Shown: piece after piece, positions 48,455 to 59,043 of the stretch
Position numbering within the stretch: position 1 is the stretch's first letter
Layout: every line of letters starts with the position of its first letter
NCBI GenBank assembly: GCA_025331435.1
Contig: JAIWNI010000015.1
Coordinates: 248,001 to 312,000 of the forward strand
Origin: Choanephora cucurbitarum
Taxonomy: Eukaryota; Mucoromycota; Mucoromycetes; Mucorales; Choanephoraceae
DNA length: 64,000 nucleotides
Direction: 5' to 3'
Program-made: the position numbers and the translations under genes
The notes under the pieces: generated by a model
The model's database searches: none
The model's input: only the letters and a program-made list of their open reading frames with translations
What the model was told of the DNA's origin: nothing

Positions 48455-51400
48455 TTAAGCTGTCAAAGGCAGCTTTGTTGAAGCACTCATCAAGTCATCT
48501 CGTTCGGCTTCTGGTTCACGTTCATTTACTGCATTTTCCAACAAAATCAAACGATGAATACGCTTCAAATGTAACCATGATGGCAAATAGAGGTGCGACT
48601 TTGTTTGGCGAGGATCAGGTACTTCATAAGCATCAGTAGTATCGTCTATAGGAACCGAATCTAAGAGCAACACATCATCTTTGTCTCCACTGACGACACG
48701 GGAAGCGACAGCACGAATAATTTCAGGTCGAATAGGGTTTTCGTAATCAGCAACATGGTATTGGGATATCAGCTTTTGAATTTGTGTAGGAGATAAGATC
48801 CAGCATACATCATAAATGTTCTCGATATCTTCCAAGGTAGCTTTCTTGAACTGAAGTAACTTAGTAGCTTGCATAAGATGTTCGAGCTGAAGAGCTACTT
48901 CTGGGATACTGTGGCCCTTACACCACTCTTCAATACGAGTAATGTTGTATTGAATTTGCATGGCTATTGACAATAAATTAGTCCCGAGTCATTTTTTACA
49001 TGAAGACATAAAGCCATTAAGATATTACCTCTCTTCCATGATGAGAAGTTCTTTCGCATCAATAGGTCATTGAAGGCAGTAACGCCAGTCATTTTCAAGA
49101 TTTCAACTAGTACTTGGTTGACGACAGATGCTTCTAAAAAGTAGCAGTTCATTGTGCGGTATAGTTTGTTGAGGAAGCTCAAAAGGTTGTCCATAGTGAA
49201 GGCAGGGCCGGAGGAACCCAGGAGCTTGTTGAGGAATCTTCCCGAGTCATTAGTAATGAAACCGGGAAGAGATTGGTTTTCAATAACTGCAGGAATGATC
49301 ATCTTGCTATAGACTCGCTTAATCTCCTTCATCCATGCATGGAAGATATTGTCTTCTAAGCATTGCATTTCAAACTTGATTGTTTGCATTAACTTTTCGA
49401 ACTCGCGCCAACGAGCACCACTTCCTCGTTCTTTCATCTCAAATTGAATGCGGCTTTCTGACTGAACAATAAGTGATAGCAGTTCATGTACATTAGTAAG
49501 CCAGAAAGCACAAGGAACTATGGCATTTTCTCCAGTAAAGCTCTACACACAATACGATTATAAGTTTTCTATTGTCTTTTGCTTTATAAGAACCTCACTT
49601 ACCAAGCATTGTTTTTGGATGGTATCCATAACAGCAAACAACAAGTTCTCGGATTCACGGTTATAGCCAATCTTCCACATATCATTAACACACATACTGA
49701 TGATGTGTGCTGGAAACATGACTTCCTTTTGAGAGGGAGGGTTTTTGTCACTAGGTGTAGGGATTTTAAGTGATCGAATTAAACCTTCTAGCACTTCGTC
49801 TTGAAGAGGGTCGATTTGTCTCAAAATTGCATCAATCTAAATGTTGGGAGAAAAGAAGAAAAATGAGTGATTGAGTTTAATTGGGTTAAAGAACAAAGTA
49901 CGTACCTCTTCTTCAGGGTTATCAGAAATGATATCAAGTCGACTGCTCTTGCCGCCTGCAAGTGTGTTCAAAATGCCAACAGAAGTAGGACGAGGGCTTT
50001 TCCCCTTCCCATATGTTTCAGCTCTACGAAGTTGATCAATGGCTGATTTAGGAATGATGCTGGATATATCAGTAGCACTATTACGACGGGCCTTGCGGTT
50101 TGTAAGTTTAGAGGCTGCCTGAGGAAGAGATTTGATATGAGCAGGTTCTATATAATCATCTGTTGAGCGAGAGACAGGCTTTCTGACGTTAGCAGGTGAG
50201 ACGGAACGACTCTTGCTTGGGTTGCCAGGTGACAGGGCACCTTGACGACTATGCATAGCCTTGGCTAACTGAGCCTTCAATGCTGCAATTTGAGCTTTCA
50301 GATCGGTCATTTCTTCATTATTTACAGGCTGTACTTCAACCTTTCTTGATTCTAGTGATTGAATGGTCTCCTTCTGAGAATTGATCTCTTGCTTCAGTTG
50401 ATCGACTTGTGCAGTCAGACTTGTCACTTTTTCGAGAGCTTCTGAGCGCTCATTCTTAAGGGCTTCGTTTTCTTGCTTGACCAAATCAAACTCTTCGCGG
50501 GGCACTCGGCTTTCAAGGAGGCCTGCTTCTGCAGACTTGGTTTCCTGTTCTAACTTGTTGTGCTTGCTGGTCCAAGATGCAATCTGGCTTTCAAGATCAG
50601 TGACCTTATGAATCAATTCGTTCTTTTCAGACTTCAAAGTAGTAACTGTCTGTGTAAGTTCGACTACTCTGCTTTCTAACTTGTAAGAAACTTCCTTGAA
50701 ATGGTTGGCCGATTTAGCTTCAGCCTTTAATACATAAAGTTGCTTGCGAGCAGTACGAAGTCGAATGCATGATTGCACATTGATGATATGTTGGAGTTGA
50801 GCTTTGTACCATTTGCGAGCCAGCCTGCGAAGTACATACAAAAGGTCAGCTTCTTTTATTCTTTTGAATGTTTACAAGCACTTACATTCCCCTGGCGCAT
50901 CGTTGGATTTGTATAGCAGCATGGCATCTCACAAGTTCATGGTGTCTTTGGCGAGCATCACGAGCACGGATAGCTAACAACATAAACGGAATTGAGTAAC
51001 AAATAACCGAACTAATTGATATCTATACGAACCTGTTTGAAGTCTAAGAGCAAAATCTTTCTTGGCCATGAACTCCTTTCGAGCAGCAAATCTACGGAAG
51101 TTCTTTTGGATGACAACGGCTGCCTTTTCTTCTTGAAGTTGGCGAAGTTGTTTCTGAGCAACTCGCTTACGAGCAACAGCTTGGATTTGAATAGATAATT
51201 CGCGCATGCGTACATATCGATGGCGATACACAAATCGCCGAATATTTTTCTGAAGTGTAGTGGCGCATTCGTTGTATCTGTCTGATCGAAGTTTTTCAAA
51301 GTAGGCTAATTGGCCAGCACGGAAGAAGATCTTTGTTTGACCTATTTGGAATTTGTCTGGATCATCAATACAGGCTTGCAGAATGGCGTTACAAAGATCT

Positions 51401-53992
51401 TTCACATTTGGGTTATTTTTTGGATCCCAATACTTTGAAGAAACCAATGCGTAGTATCTTTCAGCGAATTCTTCAAATGTCCAACGAGAAGGATAACCTA
51501 AACAACTGATACGAATGGTTTCCAAGACACCACAAGCACGAAGTTGTGAAAGAACCATGGGCGGCTCAAACTCCCAAGCTACCTTCGCTTCATTTGGTTT
51601 AATACAACGGATATAGTGGACATTGGTATCTCCAATTGTATCCATCAAACTGATGAGAGAGTTCTTGAAGATAGAACCAAGTGTAGGCTTTCTAGCAATC
51701 ATGCTCTTTCGCTTGTTTTCCTAATACATACTGTTAGCTTCTGTTATATGGTGACAAAGAAAACAAGATAGCCTTACTGCTGCTGTCACTGCATTGGCGG
51801 CCTCTATAGATTTGGCTAGAATTTCTGGCAAGAAGGAAAACTCGGAATTTTGTAACAATTGAAGGTGTTCATCTGGAACCGAATCTTTGTTCTTTTCTAA
51901 GAAACTTTCAGCCTCATACTGAACATCATGGGCATAGTGCGATACAGTAAATGCAGCGTTCGAAAAGCGAGGCTTCTTGAAATAATCTTTGTATTCAGGT
52001 GAACTAAAGTTGTCATACAATTTTTGGCAAAACCCTTGGTCTGTACCAGCTGGAAGACGTGATTCCTAGACACATTTTTCATGTTATTACTACTTTCTTT
52101 GCTATAAGTATGAAAAAAGAAGTATACCTCATCTAGAAGTGACAAAATACCAAGTCGTCCCTCAATCATCTCAATACATTTCTGGTTGTCACTGAATTCA
52201 ATAAATGTCCAGCTGATTTGTTCACGAACATATTCTTCTTGTTCCAACTTAAAAACGTGTTGATTAAATTGTTGCTGAAGCTTTTCATTGGCATAGTTGA
52301 TACAAAATTGCTCGAAAGAGTTCTTTTTAAAGTGCTCAAAACCATAGATATCCAATACACCAATAAAATTCTGAATCAGGCTTTCGTCTGGACAAGATAG
52401 ACTTTCGTTGACAACACCCACAAGCCAATCAAACAAATTCGAGTAAATATATTTAGCCACTGAATCCTTGACTACGTTTGCCTGAGCAGGGTTTAGGTTG
52501 GTAACAATCTTTTCTGAACGTGTGATGATTTGCTTTCGAACAATCCATTTTCTAAAGTCATTAGCGTTGATGCCCAATAATTTAGTTGCGACCGCCAGCG
52601 CTTCATCTGTCTCAGAAATCAAAGCGTCATTACGACCTGTCACTTTGATGTTACCAATATGAAGCAAGGCAGCCAAGATGCGGAAAATCTTCCATTGCAA
52701 GTCAACAGATAAGCCTACAGTAGACAAAGCCTTTTGTGTCACCTCGAATTCTTCCACATCGTCTACACCTGGGATTTCCCCTGTGCCGCTTTGGTTTAGA
52801 TAATGGAAGTCAGAATAAGTGCTGAGCTGAAAGTCTTTTTTTTCTTGTGAGGGAGCACCAGCACAAAGCTAACATTGCAGGTTTAATATTATTTCATCAT
52901 CCGCTTGTGCGTGTGTGTTTTTTTGTACCTGATAAAAGATGTGATAGTTTCTTTCTGTTTCTGGTTGAAATATGAGTCTCGATCTTTCCAACAAATAGGT
53001 TCTGATTTTGGCACCAATGATGTTCGAATCTTTATCAAACTCAATCTGAATGTATTTACCAAATCTTGAAGAATTGTCGTTTCGAGTTGTCTTTGCGTTA
53101 CCAAAAGCTTCCATGATAGGATTGGTAGCTAAAGTATTATGCTGTGTTACCATCGAAACCTCTTTCAAAACTAATATTTTTTTTTTTACCTAAAATCTGT
53201 TCTTCAACTTCCGTCATAGATCCGTCTGTCTTTTTCTTTTTGGTTGCACCCTCTTCGTCATCTGCTGTAGCGAAATATCTCATAATAAATTTGGCACTAA
53301 CCGTTTTACCAGCACCACTTTCACCTGACACTACAATTGTCTGATTTTTATGTTCTCGTTTCATACATCGATAGGCATCTTCAGCAATAGCAAACAAGTG
53401 TGGTTCGAGTTCTCCGCGTCTCTTTCCCGAGTATTGTTGTACAATATCCGGATCATAAAGTGATACGCGAGCAAATGGGTTTACAGCAATCAAGACAATA
53501 CCGGAATATGTATAAATCAGGCGCTGCATATATCTTGTTCTAATAGTATTTAAGACTTTTTTATAACAGCAAGAAGAACATATGTAAGTTAAGAAGGTGC
53601 ATACTGATTTCTTCTCTCTCTGTAATCGTCTCACCTGCAGGTTCATTCAAATAACTCAGATTTGTTAGATCATCTGTATATTCCATTTTAGGTGGATTTC
53701 TTAATGGCGGTAAGGTAGAACCTTTGTTTTTTGCGATATCAGATAAAGTAGATTCAAATACATGTTCCTACACCAAAGTTAGTTTTACTGCATCGAAAGC
53801 TTATTGAAATATTACCTTGCCGTCTGTATCATCCTCAAAAGTCAGTTTTACTTTATCGCCTTCTATGGTGTTTAGAATACAGGAAGCTGAAACCCAGCCT
53901 TCTTCTTTGTCAGGAAACCAAGCTTTGGTTCCTTGTGTATAGACTTCGACAGCCTGTTGAGCCTTGAAATCTTTTGTTTGAGATCCTGACAT
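48455..53992 (-). CDS. MYO2: Class V myosin heavy chain
   Basis: Start at ATG 53992 ([20 protein letters not shown]), with an SH3-like N-domain ([16 protein letters not shown]). Motor: [15 protein letters not shown]-loop [20 protein letters not shown], switch [14 protein letters not shown], relay and switch II region [18 protein letters not shown], converter [17 protein letters not shown]. About six IQ motifs follow (51702-50780; e.g. [35 protein letters not shown]), then a coiled coil and a DIL cargo-binding domain (49437-48455; [39 protein letters not shown]). Many short introns. Such motors carry vesicles and organelles along actin toward growing tips. A calmodulin/ELC-like gene lies at 61605, and a transposon is inserted about 350 bp above the start codon. 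The gene symbol is by family analogy. Confidence 0.93.
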
Positions 53993-54339
53993 GTCACTCT
54001 CTAAGAGTTAGAATAAAGAAAAAAAAAAGAAAGAAAGAAAGAGAGAAAACTCAAGGAGATGAGCCCCATTGAAATTTATACGTGATTTCAATCTCGGCCA
54101 AATGATAGTTTTGATTGGCTCTGGTAGAAAAAAAAAGAAATAAGCCAAAGTTGTCTTTACGTCACAAGACCTTAAAAAAAATAAGGATCTTAACTATAAA
54201 TTTATCATTTGCGCGCTTACTTGAATTCATTAAAGAAGGCTAAAGGGACTTTCTTGCAATGAAGCAATGCTCACATGGCTTTCAGAATACGTTACACAAC
54301 AAGTCATTCATAGCCCTTGATTGTGTGACAAATGCCTAT
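53993..54339. promoter_or_regulatory. Remaining upstream region of myosin V
   Basis: About 350 bp between the myosin start codon and the transposon. It has poly-purine tracts (54018-54046 and 54131-54139). If essential promoter elements lay further out, the insertion has moved them 4.7 kb away. Confidence 0.4.
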
Positions 54340-54347
54340 CATTACTA
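54340..54347. repeat. 8-bp target-site duplication, left copy
   Basis: CATTACTA immediately outside the left inverted repeat, identical to 59036-59043. Confidence 0.75.
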
Positions 54348-54375
54348 GGCGGACCTGACATGCCTGGGGGGAAAC
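54348..54375 (+). repeat. Left terminal inverted repeat
   Basis: 28 bp starting GGC and containing CATGCCTGGGG. It pairs imperfectly with the reverse complement of 59008-59035 (19/28 identical, counted by eye). Confidence 0.65.
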
Positions 54376-54560
54376 TCCGGTGTTAATAACAGAATCGATT
54401 GGCCAAAGTCAACCAATCATACTTCTCATTAACACCTGTTTTTGAAATTTCGACTTCAGATATTCTGATTTCTTGTATTGCTGGAAAAGAATGCATTTTA
54501 TTTATACTTTACTTTTCATTTTTTTTTTGTTCTGCTTGCTTAGATTTCCTGTTACCAATC

Positions 54561-57500
54561 ATGAAAAGCAATCAAAAGCACAAGATAACTAAGAGTTTTG
54601 CTAGACAGTTTAATACTGGTAGATTCTCTGCCACCAGAGGTTTTGACAGTAGTCAGCAATCGATCCAGAATGCTTTCAATCGCATTCAAAACAATGTAAA
54701 CTTGCCATCAGCATCACAAGCCGTGAATTTTTCTGTAGAAGAAGTAGTATGTAGAATGAACCTGCAATAGTTTTGATATTTGAGCTAAATTCATATGTAA
54801 ATATTTGAACAGGTCACCGACTATTCAGAGGGTGGCGTTATTAGTACTGGTTTGACAACTGAAGAACAAGAGCATGAGCAGAACGAACAAGTTGAAGCAG
54901 AAGATTTCGAAGAAGATCTTGAAGAAGATACCGAGGAATTTATTTCTGACAGTTTGCCCGAAGAAAGTGTTATTTCACTTTACTTGGAGAGTATCCAAAA
55001 CAGACTCTCTCAGGAAGATTATCCCTCAGAATATGCAAGAGGTACTTTCTGGATAGAGCCCATGATGCCCTTTTTTATGCTTAAGAAAAACAAGAAAGTC
55101 GAATCCCTTTATCACCCCCGAGTATTTCTGTGGATTCCTCACTTGTTGCTTAGCGAAGGGCTTGCTGCAATTCACTGTCCTTGTTGCAAATCAAAAATGG
55201 AGACTAAAGGATTCAATAAACAGCCTCATGCAAGAAGAATTGTTGATATTGATAGGTAAGATGCAGATTATCTTTTTTTTTTCATTTTCTTTTAACACAT
55301 TCTTTTCTAGCTGCTTCTACCTTATGTCAATGAGATATAGATGTTTATCGTCTGGTTGTGGAAAAACGATCAACGCTCATGATAGTCAAGTTATCAAACA
55401 GCTACCCTATGAGCTTCAGTTTGAATTCCCTGCTATCTTGACACACAGAGGAGGCGTCTCTAAGATGGTTGCTGACTTGTTAAGACCATGCATTCAAAAT
55501 TCTGTTGGACCTGAGCGTTTTCAGAAAATTCTTGTTGAATTGCACCATCTTCGTCATGATCGCATAGAGCTTCAGTATTTGCTTTCTGTTTACAGAAAAA
55601 GAAGCGGTGCTGCAAGATACTTTCTTAACTCTGAGCCTGATGTTTTTTCTTCTTTTGAGAATCAGATGCAATATGCAGGATTTGTGCCTTCGGGCACATA
55701 TGTTCGTACTTTGTACACTGCTATTATTCAGACTCTTAGACCAAAGATGGATAAGCACATGATGCTTTTAGATGGAAAGATCTTGAAAGGAGATCATTCT
55801 TTTAAGTTTCCCAAGCACATGGCAAAAATCAACGAAGCTAGTGTCTTTACTGCACTCTATACAGTAACGAATGAATATGAAGAGATAGTGCAACAAATGC
55901 TGGTGCCTTCAAAAGCATTGAGTTATCTTCGCTTTTCCTTTGAGAAAATGCGTGAGGGCTATTCTTTGTATGGCCATGAAATGCCAATTGCTTTCTTTAC
56001 AGATAATGTAAAAGGTGATAAAAATTTCTTGGAGGGCGTTTTTGAATCTTTAAAACATCAAGTGCAACCCTTACCATACATTGTTGCTTCTTCTGTTGAC
56101 GAAGACTCTGATTTTTTGAAGTTGCCTGAAACTGTCGAAGCTGTCTATGTTGCTCGTGATTATGATGCTATCAATAAGCATTTCAGACAGCTTCTTGAGG
56201 ATTTGAAGAACGATGAAGATTGGACTGTTGGGTTTGATGCTGAATGGGTACCCTTCTCTGCTGGAAATAAGGTGGATGTTGTTCAAGTAGCCTACAAGAA
56301 CAAGGTATTGGTAATCCACTTGGATCAGTCGTGGCAGGAATTGCCTCCTTATTTCCAAGCATTTCTGAGAGATGCAACTATCAGGAAGGTGGGAAGGCAA
56401 GTGGGCGGCGATCTCGGTAGAATCAATCGAGGTTACCACCTTATGTGTCGTGGCGCTCTTGAGCTTGGCTCCTTTTGGTCTGCAAGGAAATGCATTCCAA
56501 ATGGCCAAATGTCTTCGACCGAAATTGCGTTCAAAGTTCTTGGAATGAAGATCAAGAAAGATGAGCGACTTTCTGACTGGAGTGTTTCACCTTTGTCTAC
56601 CCAACAAATTGAGTATGCTGCCATCGATGCTTGGGCAAGCATGGCTATATACAGTGCTGTAAGAGACAAACCTGAGATTGGTACTAGAATTAGTTCTAGA
56701 AACTGTCTTCCAGGTGTTTGTGTAGCTTACAAGCCTAGGCAAGCAAAGAGTGTAGTTGCGCTTGGTAAAGTTTGCAGTGGCATCACTAATCAAGGTGTAG
56801 TCATGGTAAGCATACTACATGTTAAGCTCCCAGGATTTCTTTTTTCTTTGAACTCAGGTACAATCGCTGAAAACCCAAGGCCTCTCAACTCTTTTGGTGC
56901 AGTTCCCTTTGAATTGAGTATACCGATGAAAGACCTTGTAACAGTAGCCGAGCAAGATGTAGAATGCATAGATGGATCTGGTAATAACGAGCAAAATCTC
57001 ACAGCCTCCTTTCAGCAAAGCGTTGATGTTCAATCCGCAAGCGATCGGAGTGCTACAGATAGTGAGGTTGAGGAAGCTTTTGCGGTTATGTTTGGAGAAG
57101 ACACGGCGATGGTAGACAAAGAAAGCTTTTCTACTGGCTATAAAGCCTTTCCGAATGCTAATTTAAGCCCAAGCTATAATGATGAAGTCGATACCACCAT
57201 AGTTCGGACAAGAGTAGTAAAAGACATATTCCACTTAATGGACATGATCAAGCCTTACAAAAAGCACACTCTCTACAAAGAATTTACTCGTAGATTCAGT
57301 GACAGCCTTTTTGTTTTGAATGAGGAAGATAAGAGAGTTGTTGCAGAAGCACTCGAAAACAATGGATCTTCATGGGAAGTAAAGATGAAGTATGACAGAT
57401 CCTGGATCATGAAGCGTGTTAGAAGAAAAGTTCCTGCTCCTGAGCAGTTGTTGCCGCTGTTGAAATCTTTGTTTTTGTCTTTTGGACCACTGAAGTGCTC

Positions 57501-58878
57501 GAAGTCTGCAAGACCTTTGTTTGACAAGCTTTCTTGGAAACAGGCTTTAAGTGTTCTCAGAACTGTAGAGTTAGGGCACGCCTCTGATCCCCCAGGAGTT
57601 CAGCTCTATTTCGAGACTGGCAAAAAAGACAGACTTGGCCTTACTTTGTATAGATGTGTAAGAGGCACTAACTCCCTTGAGGGTGGTGTCCATCAAAATT
57701 TAATTCGAAAGTTTGGCTCGTTTGGAGCAGGACCTGCATTGGCAGATGCCATGTTGATGGAATATCGACTGCGCCATAATATTGACGTTGGAACTGCCAA
57801 TCGATGCAGCCGTCTTCATAAAGGTCACTATGATCCATGGCTAGTTCAACACATTCAATTTTTAAGAAGCAAGCTCGGTATCAATGGTTGTAAGCAACAT
57901 ATATCTGTCGATATTAATGCTTTGCATTACCAAGGTTCAAAAGAAGTTTTTAGAATTTGTCCATTTCCTGAAGATGAAATAAGAAAGCTTGGCATTGAAA
58001 GTAGCAATGGTAATACGGTTGCTTCTAGACTTTCTAATTTGACCATTCCAAAGATAGAAGATACTGTGCATCTATCTGTCAGTTCAACAAGTCGTCCGAT
58101 AAATGCCAGATACACTTACGTTGCTCATGCTCAAAGGACCAGATTTGCTGTTATTGCGGTGCATACACTAGAAGAGTTGTTCCTGTTTTCTCGGCTGTAC
58201 AACGAGCAGTTTTTAAATGTTCATAGCCCTGATTTTCAGAAATTTGCTTCCATCTGGAATGCTCATGCAAATGGTGAGAACATTTTCTACAAAACGCCAG
58301 AGCATTTGGAGAAGCACTTTGGCCACTGGAAAGAGCAGGAAGCGGCCAAGAAAACCAATAGCATTCATTATGGTATCATTGAGTCGTTTATGACTGAACA
58401 AAGATCTGTAAATGCACCTAGGCAGACTGAACAAGCTCGTGTACCTAGCCTTCCTATGACAGTAGGTAATGTCATGCTACCTGAGTCACCGTTGATCATG
58501 CCTGCCCCAACTTCTGTTCCTCCTGCTGTTGTGTTTCCATTCGAAACACAAAACATACCTTTTGCTTTTAGCATACCACGCATGCAAATTCTTCAACAAC
58601 ATCCTGTAATATCAAGCTCAGTTCCACGAGTACTGCAGCCCAATATCCACAGAACTGCTGATGTGAGAACATCCAATTTGGCAGCAGTAGCAACAGTAGT
58701 AAGACCATCTAACATTACAATAGATGTGGCTAAGCGAAGATCATGCAAAGGCTGTGGATCTCACACTTGTCCCGGCAAAATCAACAGAAAGCGGTGCCTT
58801 TTTCCAATATGCTTGAAATGCAAAAAAGAGAAAGACTGCGACGGATTGTTCGATCCAAGCAAGTGCAGTACTACATAA
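54561..58878 (+). CDS. DDE-type transposase-like protein with embedded DEDDy 3'-5' exonuclease domain
   Basis: Three exons (54561-54743, 54813-55255, 55311-58878) give about 1,397 aa. After an acidic region (residues about 90-120) there is a zinc-binding domain, CPCC at about 182 to YRCLSSGCG, with RIVDIDSCFYLMSMRYRC; from memory it resembles DUF6729. Next, MLLDGKILKGDHSFKFPKHM (Asp363) and FFTDNVKGDKNF (Asp440) resemble the first two acidic blocks of a DDE nuclease. Residues about 510-655 form a DEDDy exonuclease: FDAEW (517), a Gly-Arg-Gln-rich motif II ending GGDLGRI, and YAAIDAW (644-648). Then RGTNSLEGGVHQNL (Glu999, candidate third acidic residue), HYDPWLVQHIQFLRSK, and a C-terminal Cys cluster (CKGCGSHTCPG, CLFPICLKCKKEKDC). 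Expected to cut and join element ends in the nucleus; the exonuclease role is unknown. Confidence 0.8.
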
Positions 58879-58899
58879 TGCATTATGAATAAATTTCTT

Positions 58900-58970
58900 T
58901 TCATTTCTCTTTCTCTTTCTTTCTCTCTTTCTCTCTTTCTTTCTTTCTCTCTTTCTTTTTTCCTTCTTTT
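58900..58970 (+). repeat. CT/CTTT-rich simple repeat in transposon 3' region
   Basis: Nearly pure pyrimidine tract of CTTT and CTCTTT units between the stop codon and the right inverted repeat. It could serve as a 3'-UTR or spacer. Confidence 0.8.
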
Positions 58971-59007
58971 TATTTTTCAAAATTACTAAATTTGGAAATT
59001 GAGTTTT

Positions 59008-59035
59008 GTATCTCCCCAGACATGGCATACGAGCC
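59008..59035 (-). repeat. Right terminal inverted repeat
   Basis: Read on the minus strand it starts GGC and contains CATGTCTGGGG, matching the left end at 19 of 28 positions. Confidence 0.65.
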
Positions 59036-59043
59036 CATTACTA
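59036..59043. repeat. 8-bp target-site duplication, right copy
   Basis: CATTACTA directly outside the right inverted repeat, identical to 54340-54347. Confidence 0.75.

Follow-up and report, generated by a model that had tools for sequence, protein, structure and literature searches.

The closest described relatives of the element reported here are the exonuclease-bearing members of the Dada superfamily of DNA transposons, Dada-1_LB and Dada-2_LB of Laccaria bicolor and Dada-1_ES of Ectocarpus, whose architecture was published in 2013 by Kojima and Jurka in one short paragraph (PMC3706591). The sections of that paper that treat them give the position of the exonuclease, a DEDDy domain between the second catalytic aspartate and the DxxH motif of a DDE transposase, and propose that it processes 3' ends. 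In that description the superfamily as a whole makes target duplications of 6 to 7 bp and lacks terminal inverted repeats, and every family whose termini could be defined targets RNA genes; the exonuclease-bearing families have no RNA target in their names. In this study we analyze a window of 64,000 nucleotides from Choanephora cucurbitarum (Mucorales; GCA_025331435.1, contig JAIWNI010000015.1, positions 248,001 to 312,000), which holds an element with the same predicted arrangement, and we estimate at about 0.72 the probability that it is a recently mobile, autonomous fungal DNA transposon of the exonuclease-bearing Dada type.

RESULTS

The element spans positions 54348 to 59035 of the window on the forward strand (4,688 bp) and is complete, with the same ends in near-identical copies elsewhere in the genome. 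Its left terminus is GGCGGACCTGACATGCCTGGGG at 54348 and its right terminus is ...CCCCAGACATGGCATACGAGCC at 59035, and CATTACTA abuts both ends externally (54340 to 54347 and 59036 to 59043), forming an apparent 8-bp target-site duplication; among 500,000 random spans, perfectly matching 8-bp flanks were seen 37 times. The two ends (54348 to 54375, forward strand; 59008 to 59035, reverse strand) match in inverted orientation and in register at 19 of 28 positions, most strongly from base 9 inward, and can be read either as terminal or as sub-terminal inverted repeats. This match was reached by 4 of 200,000 same-length random spans of the window; when the two 150-bp ends were locally aligned without a fixed register, the score was 12, compared with a mean of 9.2 and a best score of 14 among 500 shuffles, so what is unusual is the shared register and not the local alignment score.

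Among the 48 matches listed by a DNA-level search of the genome (33.4 Mb, 357 contigs) are five copies with identities of 98.76 to 99.85%: the window copy (C57), C73, C164, C303, and C201. A genome scan with a 17-base end motif recovered 25 matches at no more than 2 mismatches, against 7 for a reversed control, and the nine exact matches are all ends of the five copies; an additional right end (C153) is located at a contig start. The flanks of C57 carry the exact 8-bp duplication, those of C164 an 8-bp duplication with one mismatch (GTTTTTTT/GTTTTTCT), and those of C73 a 7-bp duplication (TTTTTTG); the last two, both in T runs, are weak evidence taken alone. In C303 (loci L004, L057, and L058) an exact 8-bp duplication (AAAGTCTG) is intact and 10 bp of the left end are missing, with the loss located between two CTG repeats. 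The long frame is present at its full 1,270 residues in C57, C73, and C164 and at 1,207 residues in C303. C201 (L005) is full-length with a broken frame, an N at the position of the catalytic residue D441, and no target duplication, the state that a one-ended or recombined insertion would be expected to leave; Dada copies with non-matching flanks are mentioned in the 2013 description (PMC3706591). No duplication could be read at the older copies C115 and C121. Insertion sites of C73, C164, C121, and C115 adjoin T or A runs.

Older relics are also present, including related families at 41 to 66% protein identity (e.g., C70 and C290); no convincing inverted ends were found for the relic families C70, C290, C157, and C325. 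Targeting of small-RNA genes was considered and received no support, as Rfam gave no match at E ≤ 0.1 in 6 loci (the five copies and one partial, with flanks up to 1.5 kb) and ARAGORN, run with the bacterial code, found no tRNA in 8 loci with flanks up to 1.5 kb. Together, these data support an element that is multi-copy and was recently mobile. A first-pass annotation of this DNA had placed the element at exactly these coordinates and had read it as an intact DNA transposon, both of which agree with the termini, the flanking CATTACTA, and the five near-identical genomic copies.

The element contains one gene on its forward strand, with exons at 54561 to 54746, 54813 to 55255, and 55311 to 58878 (including the stop codon), separated by two GT-AG introns of 66 nt (54747 to 54812) and 55 nt (55256 to 55310), whose removal yields an open product of 1,398 residues. 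Homologues read across the joint of intron 2; intron 1 lacks confirmation by homology because its region is poorly conserved. An intron-like stretch at 56806 to 56857 was rejected as a third intron, since homologues align over it as coding sequence. Pfam recognized only two regions in the protein: DUF6729 (residues 141 to 306, E 5e-19; 55047 to 55599, spanning intron 2), which contains the N-terminal cysteine pairs C184/C187 and C221/C226 and of which we found no mention in the literature searched, and DNA_pol_A_exo1 (residues 500 to 661, E 2.6e-13). The latter lies within a WRN-type DEDDy 3'-5' exonuclease domain covering residues 475 to 664 (56104 to 56673), with D519, E521, D577, Y645, and D649 as its catalytic residues, that was also recovered by profile search of the PDB and by fold comparison.

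Alignment and structure prediction place the two halves of a putative DDE RNase H core on either side of this exonuclease. The first half (55780 to 56055) carries D371 (55792 to 55794) and D441 (56002 to 56004), and the second (57208 to 57723) carries D848-x-x-H851 (57223 to 57234), a helical insertion, and E1000 (57679 to 57681), an arrangement predicted to be a core of the IS256/MULE kind (MULE being the MuDR group) that is split between its D441 strand and its DxxH strand. All 50 fold matches listed for a model of the whole protein were exonuclease folds, which was uninformative on the core; a second model was therefore made for the core, and its closest solved fold is the ISCth4 transposase. 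The combination of an RNase H core with C/DxxH and a helical insertion is that of IS256 and MULE; the MULE family model matched 2 of 35 members (best E 7.6e-4, below the Pfam cut-off) and did not match the window protein. Between the exonuclease and the second core half lies a moderately conserved segment that is beta-rich in the model (residues about 670 to 754; 56689 to 56943). Mean column conservation at residues 670 to 740 was 0.50, compared with 0.36 in the linker, and this segment has no Pfam name. A C-terminal cysteine cluster (residues 1355 to 1395; 58744 to 58866) consists of CX2CX4CX8C and four further cysteines.

The continuous frame after two introns, the DEDDy exonuclease, and its location inside a catalytic core had all been anticipated by the first-pass annotation and are borne out by the open product, the domain searches, and the predicted core. 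Its choice of the first catalytic aspartate, in MLLDGK, was rejected: that residue is replaced in P0008, P0012, P0014, and P0015, and the catalytic position is instead D371 in GDHSFK. Its numbers for the other residues are one or two lower than ours, and the DxxH motif after the exonuclease (D848, H851) had gone unnamed. It had found no standard superfamily for the architecture, which the 2013 account of Dada had already described (PMC3706591). Neither of the two outcomes that it had named as fatal was obtained: an RNase H fold is predicted, and the gene is present in several near-identical copies.

Three protein searches, one of which scored only 8,000 candidates, returned homologues P0001 to P0090; because every query contained the exonuclease, these searches tell little about relatives that lack it. 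Homologues of named source come from Mucorales, Agaricomycetes, and the aphelid Amoeboaphelidium, and the remainder from metagenomes; the closest named-source proteins are from Mucor and Parasitella. P0016, P0052, and P0090 match over only 6 to 15% of the query. The recount set comprised 87 matches and the window protein (88 aligned rows), with counts taken among rows that have a residue at the site. In the core, conservation was 85/86 for D371, 82/83 for D441, 62/62 for D848, 58/60 for H851, and 47/47 for E1000; in the exonuclease it was 75/79 for D519, 75/79 for E521, 73/76 for D577, 70/74 for Y645, and 70/74 for D649. Among the 60 rows with aspartate at both D441 and D848, here termed spanning rows, 54 retain all five exonuclease residues, and these come from Mucorales, Agaricomycetes, and an aphelid. 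All ten catalytic residues are invariant in an alignment of 38 rows (A6) chosen to carry both core and exonuclease, and the spacing between the first two aspartates, 70 in the window protein, ranges from 68 to 72 in these rows. The Amoeboaphelidium proteins P0029 and P0032 have all catalytic residues, with 247 and 222 residues from the second aspartate to the DxxH and most of the post-exonuclease segment missing. In viral contigs, 51 pattern matches yielded 1 confirmed match, within the exonuclease part only.

Pairwise distances in the core and the exonuclease of the 38 chosen rows are correlated at 0.85 (702 of 703 pairs), a value reached in none of 999 permutations. In comparison with relics C70 and C290, the proportion of nonsynonymous differences (pN) was 0.157 and 0.190 in the exonuclease, 0.117 to 0.158 in the core halves, and 0.441 to 0.454 in the linker. 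The simplest reading of these sequence comparisons is that core and exonuclease have long been inherited together and that the exonuclease has usually, though not always, been kept active.

A TTTC-rich microsatellite occupies 58894 to 58978, directly 3' of the stop codon, and in C201 about 150 bp separate two matched parts there. The neighboring gene, on the reverse strand at 50977 to 54007, encodes a myosin (Pfam myosin head and IQ motif at 50977 to 52868; exons for the N terminus were identified by eye), and the distance from the element, which lies upstream, to the apparent start codon of this gene is about 0.35 kb.

DISCUSSION

Our assignment draws on architecture and spacing, compared with the published description of Dada rather than with Dada sequences in Repbase. 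Like the Laccaria and Ectocarpus elements as described, the window element is predicted to encode a DDE and DxxH transposase with a DEDDy exonuclease between the second aspartate and the DxxH, with all catalytic residues retained, and it likewise has N- and C-terminal cysteine motifs, introns, and a length within 4,666 to 10,979 bp. The Dada zinc motifs (N-terminal CCCC and C-terminal CCHC) have possible counterparts in C184, C187, C221, and C226 and in CX2CX4CX8C, where a cysteine replaces the histidine. Several observations weigh against the assignment, beginning with that reliance on a published description. Duplications are 8 bp at the window copy, C164, and C303 (although 7 bp at C73) rather than 6 to 7 bp; the Rfam and tRNA searches recovered no insertion in multicopy small-RNA genes at their 6 and 8 loci; the inverted ends are arguable when set against the sub-terminal-only repeats of Dada; and among the five two-ended copies, only one has an exact 8-bp duplication beside intact ends, the others being mismatched, 7 bp, end-shortened, or without duplication.

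The record of the exonuclease is also mixed. Its residues are less strictly conserved than those of the core; P0007 (K at E521) and P0026 (gap at D577) each miss one of them, and in P0078 from Mycena venus three of the five are changed while the core motifs are retained through the glutamate. Among nonspanning rows, several are changed in P0040, P0047, and P0088 and one in P0081. The Apophysomyces proteins P0008 and P0024 lack the domain, the D441 helix of P0024 passing directly into the DxxH segment, and P0080 from Gymnopus lacks most of it. These relatives may be decayed copies, gene-model errors, or a working exonuclease-dead lineage. Against relics C157 and C325, pN in the exonuclease was 0.396 and 0.375, showing far less conservation than in the core (0.195 to 0.236), with the linker at 0.485 and 0.500; in the comparison with C279, a relic of the same family, exonuclease (0.074) and linker (0.071) do not differ; and the corresponding synonymous proportion (pS) approaches saturation for every relic but C279, with the synonymous distance (dS) saturated against C70, C290, C157, and C325. 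The homologue recount led us to lower the probability of the Dada-type transposon from 0.75 to 0.72 and to raise somewhat that of an exonuclease whose catalysis is dispensable. We still consider the latter quite unlikely: P0078, P0040, P0047, and P0088 keep a domain without an intact site and some gene models have no domain at all, as would fit a purely structural or DNA-binding role, but 54 of the 60 spanning rows keep all five residues and pN against C70 and C290 is low.

A separate superfamily beside Dada, set apart by the structure of its ends and by the targets it selects, would mean that the Dada name covers two kinds of element. The imperfect inverted ends, the exact 8-bp duplication at the window copy, the lack of a recognized small-RNA gene at the five copies, and the 8-bp duplications made by ISCth4, the closest solved core, all point in that direction; however, the exonuclease position, aspartate spacing, DxxH, and cysteine clusters fit the published description of Dada, and the absence of an RNA target from the names of the Laccaria and Ectocarpus elements suggests that the RNA-gene feature may not hold for all Dada, leaving a separate superfamily as a minority possibility. 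Domestication as a host gene could account for a single long, conserved open frame beside host genes, but the five near-identical, same-ended copies at unrelated sites and the decayed relics, some of this family and some of related ones, rule it out for practical purposes.

Enzymes of the DDE class with this fold release a 3'-OH, which they then join to target strands. ISCth4 is reported to perform such joining with A/T-rich 8-bp duplications (PMC7780238). For the proposed Dada-type transposon, the cysteine clusters would be zinc-binding and would contribute to holding the ends of the element, and the DDE site would expose the 3'-OH ends and join them to both strands of an AT-rich target, at points some 8 bp from each other; a preference for AT-rich targets is possible. 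The exonuclease, acting in the same protein or complex, would shorten DNA 3' ends during the reaction, which may be either cut-and-paste or copy-out/paste-in. Flank nucleotides left on the element 3' ends are its best single candidate substrate, at somewhat less than even odds.

Donor-site 3' ends, whose shortening would favor gap repair and copy gain, are a weaker candidate. On this reading the domain would resect the broken chromosome after excision, and the gap would then be repaired from a sister copy. In its favor, any free 3' end is a possible substrate for a 3'-5' exonuclease, and P elements are known to gain copies by gap repair; C201, without a duplication, and C303, without 10 bp of its left end, might be its products. 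No excision footprint was identified, however, and the loss in C303, between CTG repeats, is explained as an ordinary microhomology deletion, for which reason we do not attribute it to end trimming by the exonuclease either. On balance we find a donor-site role doubtful.

The literature searched yielded no report of a functional test of a transposase-nested exonuclease or of its role in Dada. With defined ends, five copies, a duplication size, and ten named residues, the reason for a core-nested exonuclease becomes directly testable, and relatives that retain the domain with an altered site, if real, are natural controls. New here are the ends, the target duplication and sites, the two joined active sites conserved across fungi with few exceptions, and the predicted fold assignments. 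The window family thus supplies ends, duplication, and insertion sites for the exonuclease-bearing type, which differ from the superfamily description, and it calls into question the generality of RNA-gene targeting in Dada. A bolder proposal, which we hold only tentatively and think unlikely, is that fungal exonuclease-bearing Dada-like transposons form their own lineage, with 8-bp AT-rich duplications and no tie to small-RNA genes, and that they are nested RNase H-fold "trimmer-integrases" in which the inner exonuclease sizes 3' ends for the outer transposase.

Comparison with known systems

Target duplications are 9 to 10 bp in MULE (MuDR) and 8 bp in hAT; the window copy, at 8 bp, is unlike the former and like the latter in this respect. 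Relative to the exonuclease-bearing Dada elements as published, the window element differs in having defined ends with imperfect inverted repeats, a best duplication of 8 bp, and no small-RNA gene found (PMC3706591). It shares with target-specific Dada families (U6, U1, and tRNA families of fish, Daphnia, and Perkinsus) the transposase signature, with an aspartate spacing of 70 compared with 68 in Dada-U6_DR, and short inverted repeats that can be read as sub-terminal; in the sections cited, those families duplicate 6 to 7 bp within specific RNA genes and lack terminal inverted repeats, and no exonuclease is mentioned for them (PMC3706591; PMC8869645). ISCth4, of the IS256 family, resembles it in a C/DxxH motif with a helical insertion domain and in A/T-rich 8-bp duplications, yet it is a bacterial protein of about 400 residues in which 21 residues rather than 407 separate the second aspartate from the CxxH and no exonuclease is present, and its element moves by copy-out/paste-in (PMC7780238).

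Recruitment of exonucleases by DDE and C/DxxH transposons has been described for KolobokD (DEDDh) and KolobokE (lambda-exonuclease-like) (PMC9587614), and ISL2EU has acquired a YqaJ exonuclease. The Kolobok nucleases differ from that of the window element in that they are not DEDDy, are described as accessory proteins, with no core insertion mentioned in the text cited, and belong to elements with TTAA duplications (PMC9587614), a hallmark not found at our copies with read flanks. The predicted exonuclease resembles the WRN exonuclease domain (PDB 2e6l and 2fbt) in fold and in DEDDy residues; the WRN domain is part of a helicase protein, whereas that of the window protein appears nested in another RNase H fold. 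The resemblance to the Cas1-Cas2/DEDDh trimmer-integrase is one of function only: in that system a DNA integrase is coupled in one physical unit with a DnaQ-like 3'-5' exonuclease, which cuts 3' ends back ahead of integration, and trimming to integration size is reported to be achieved only by the whole complex and to be carried out by the DEDDh site (PMC10284694). That system is bacterial, its integrase is of another kind, and its exonuclease is linker-fused to Cas2 (PMC10284694). If the trimmer model is true, transposons and CRISPR trimmer-integrases would represent two independent solutions to end processing.

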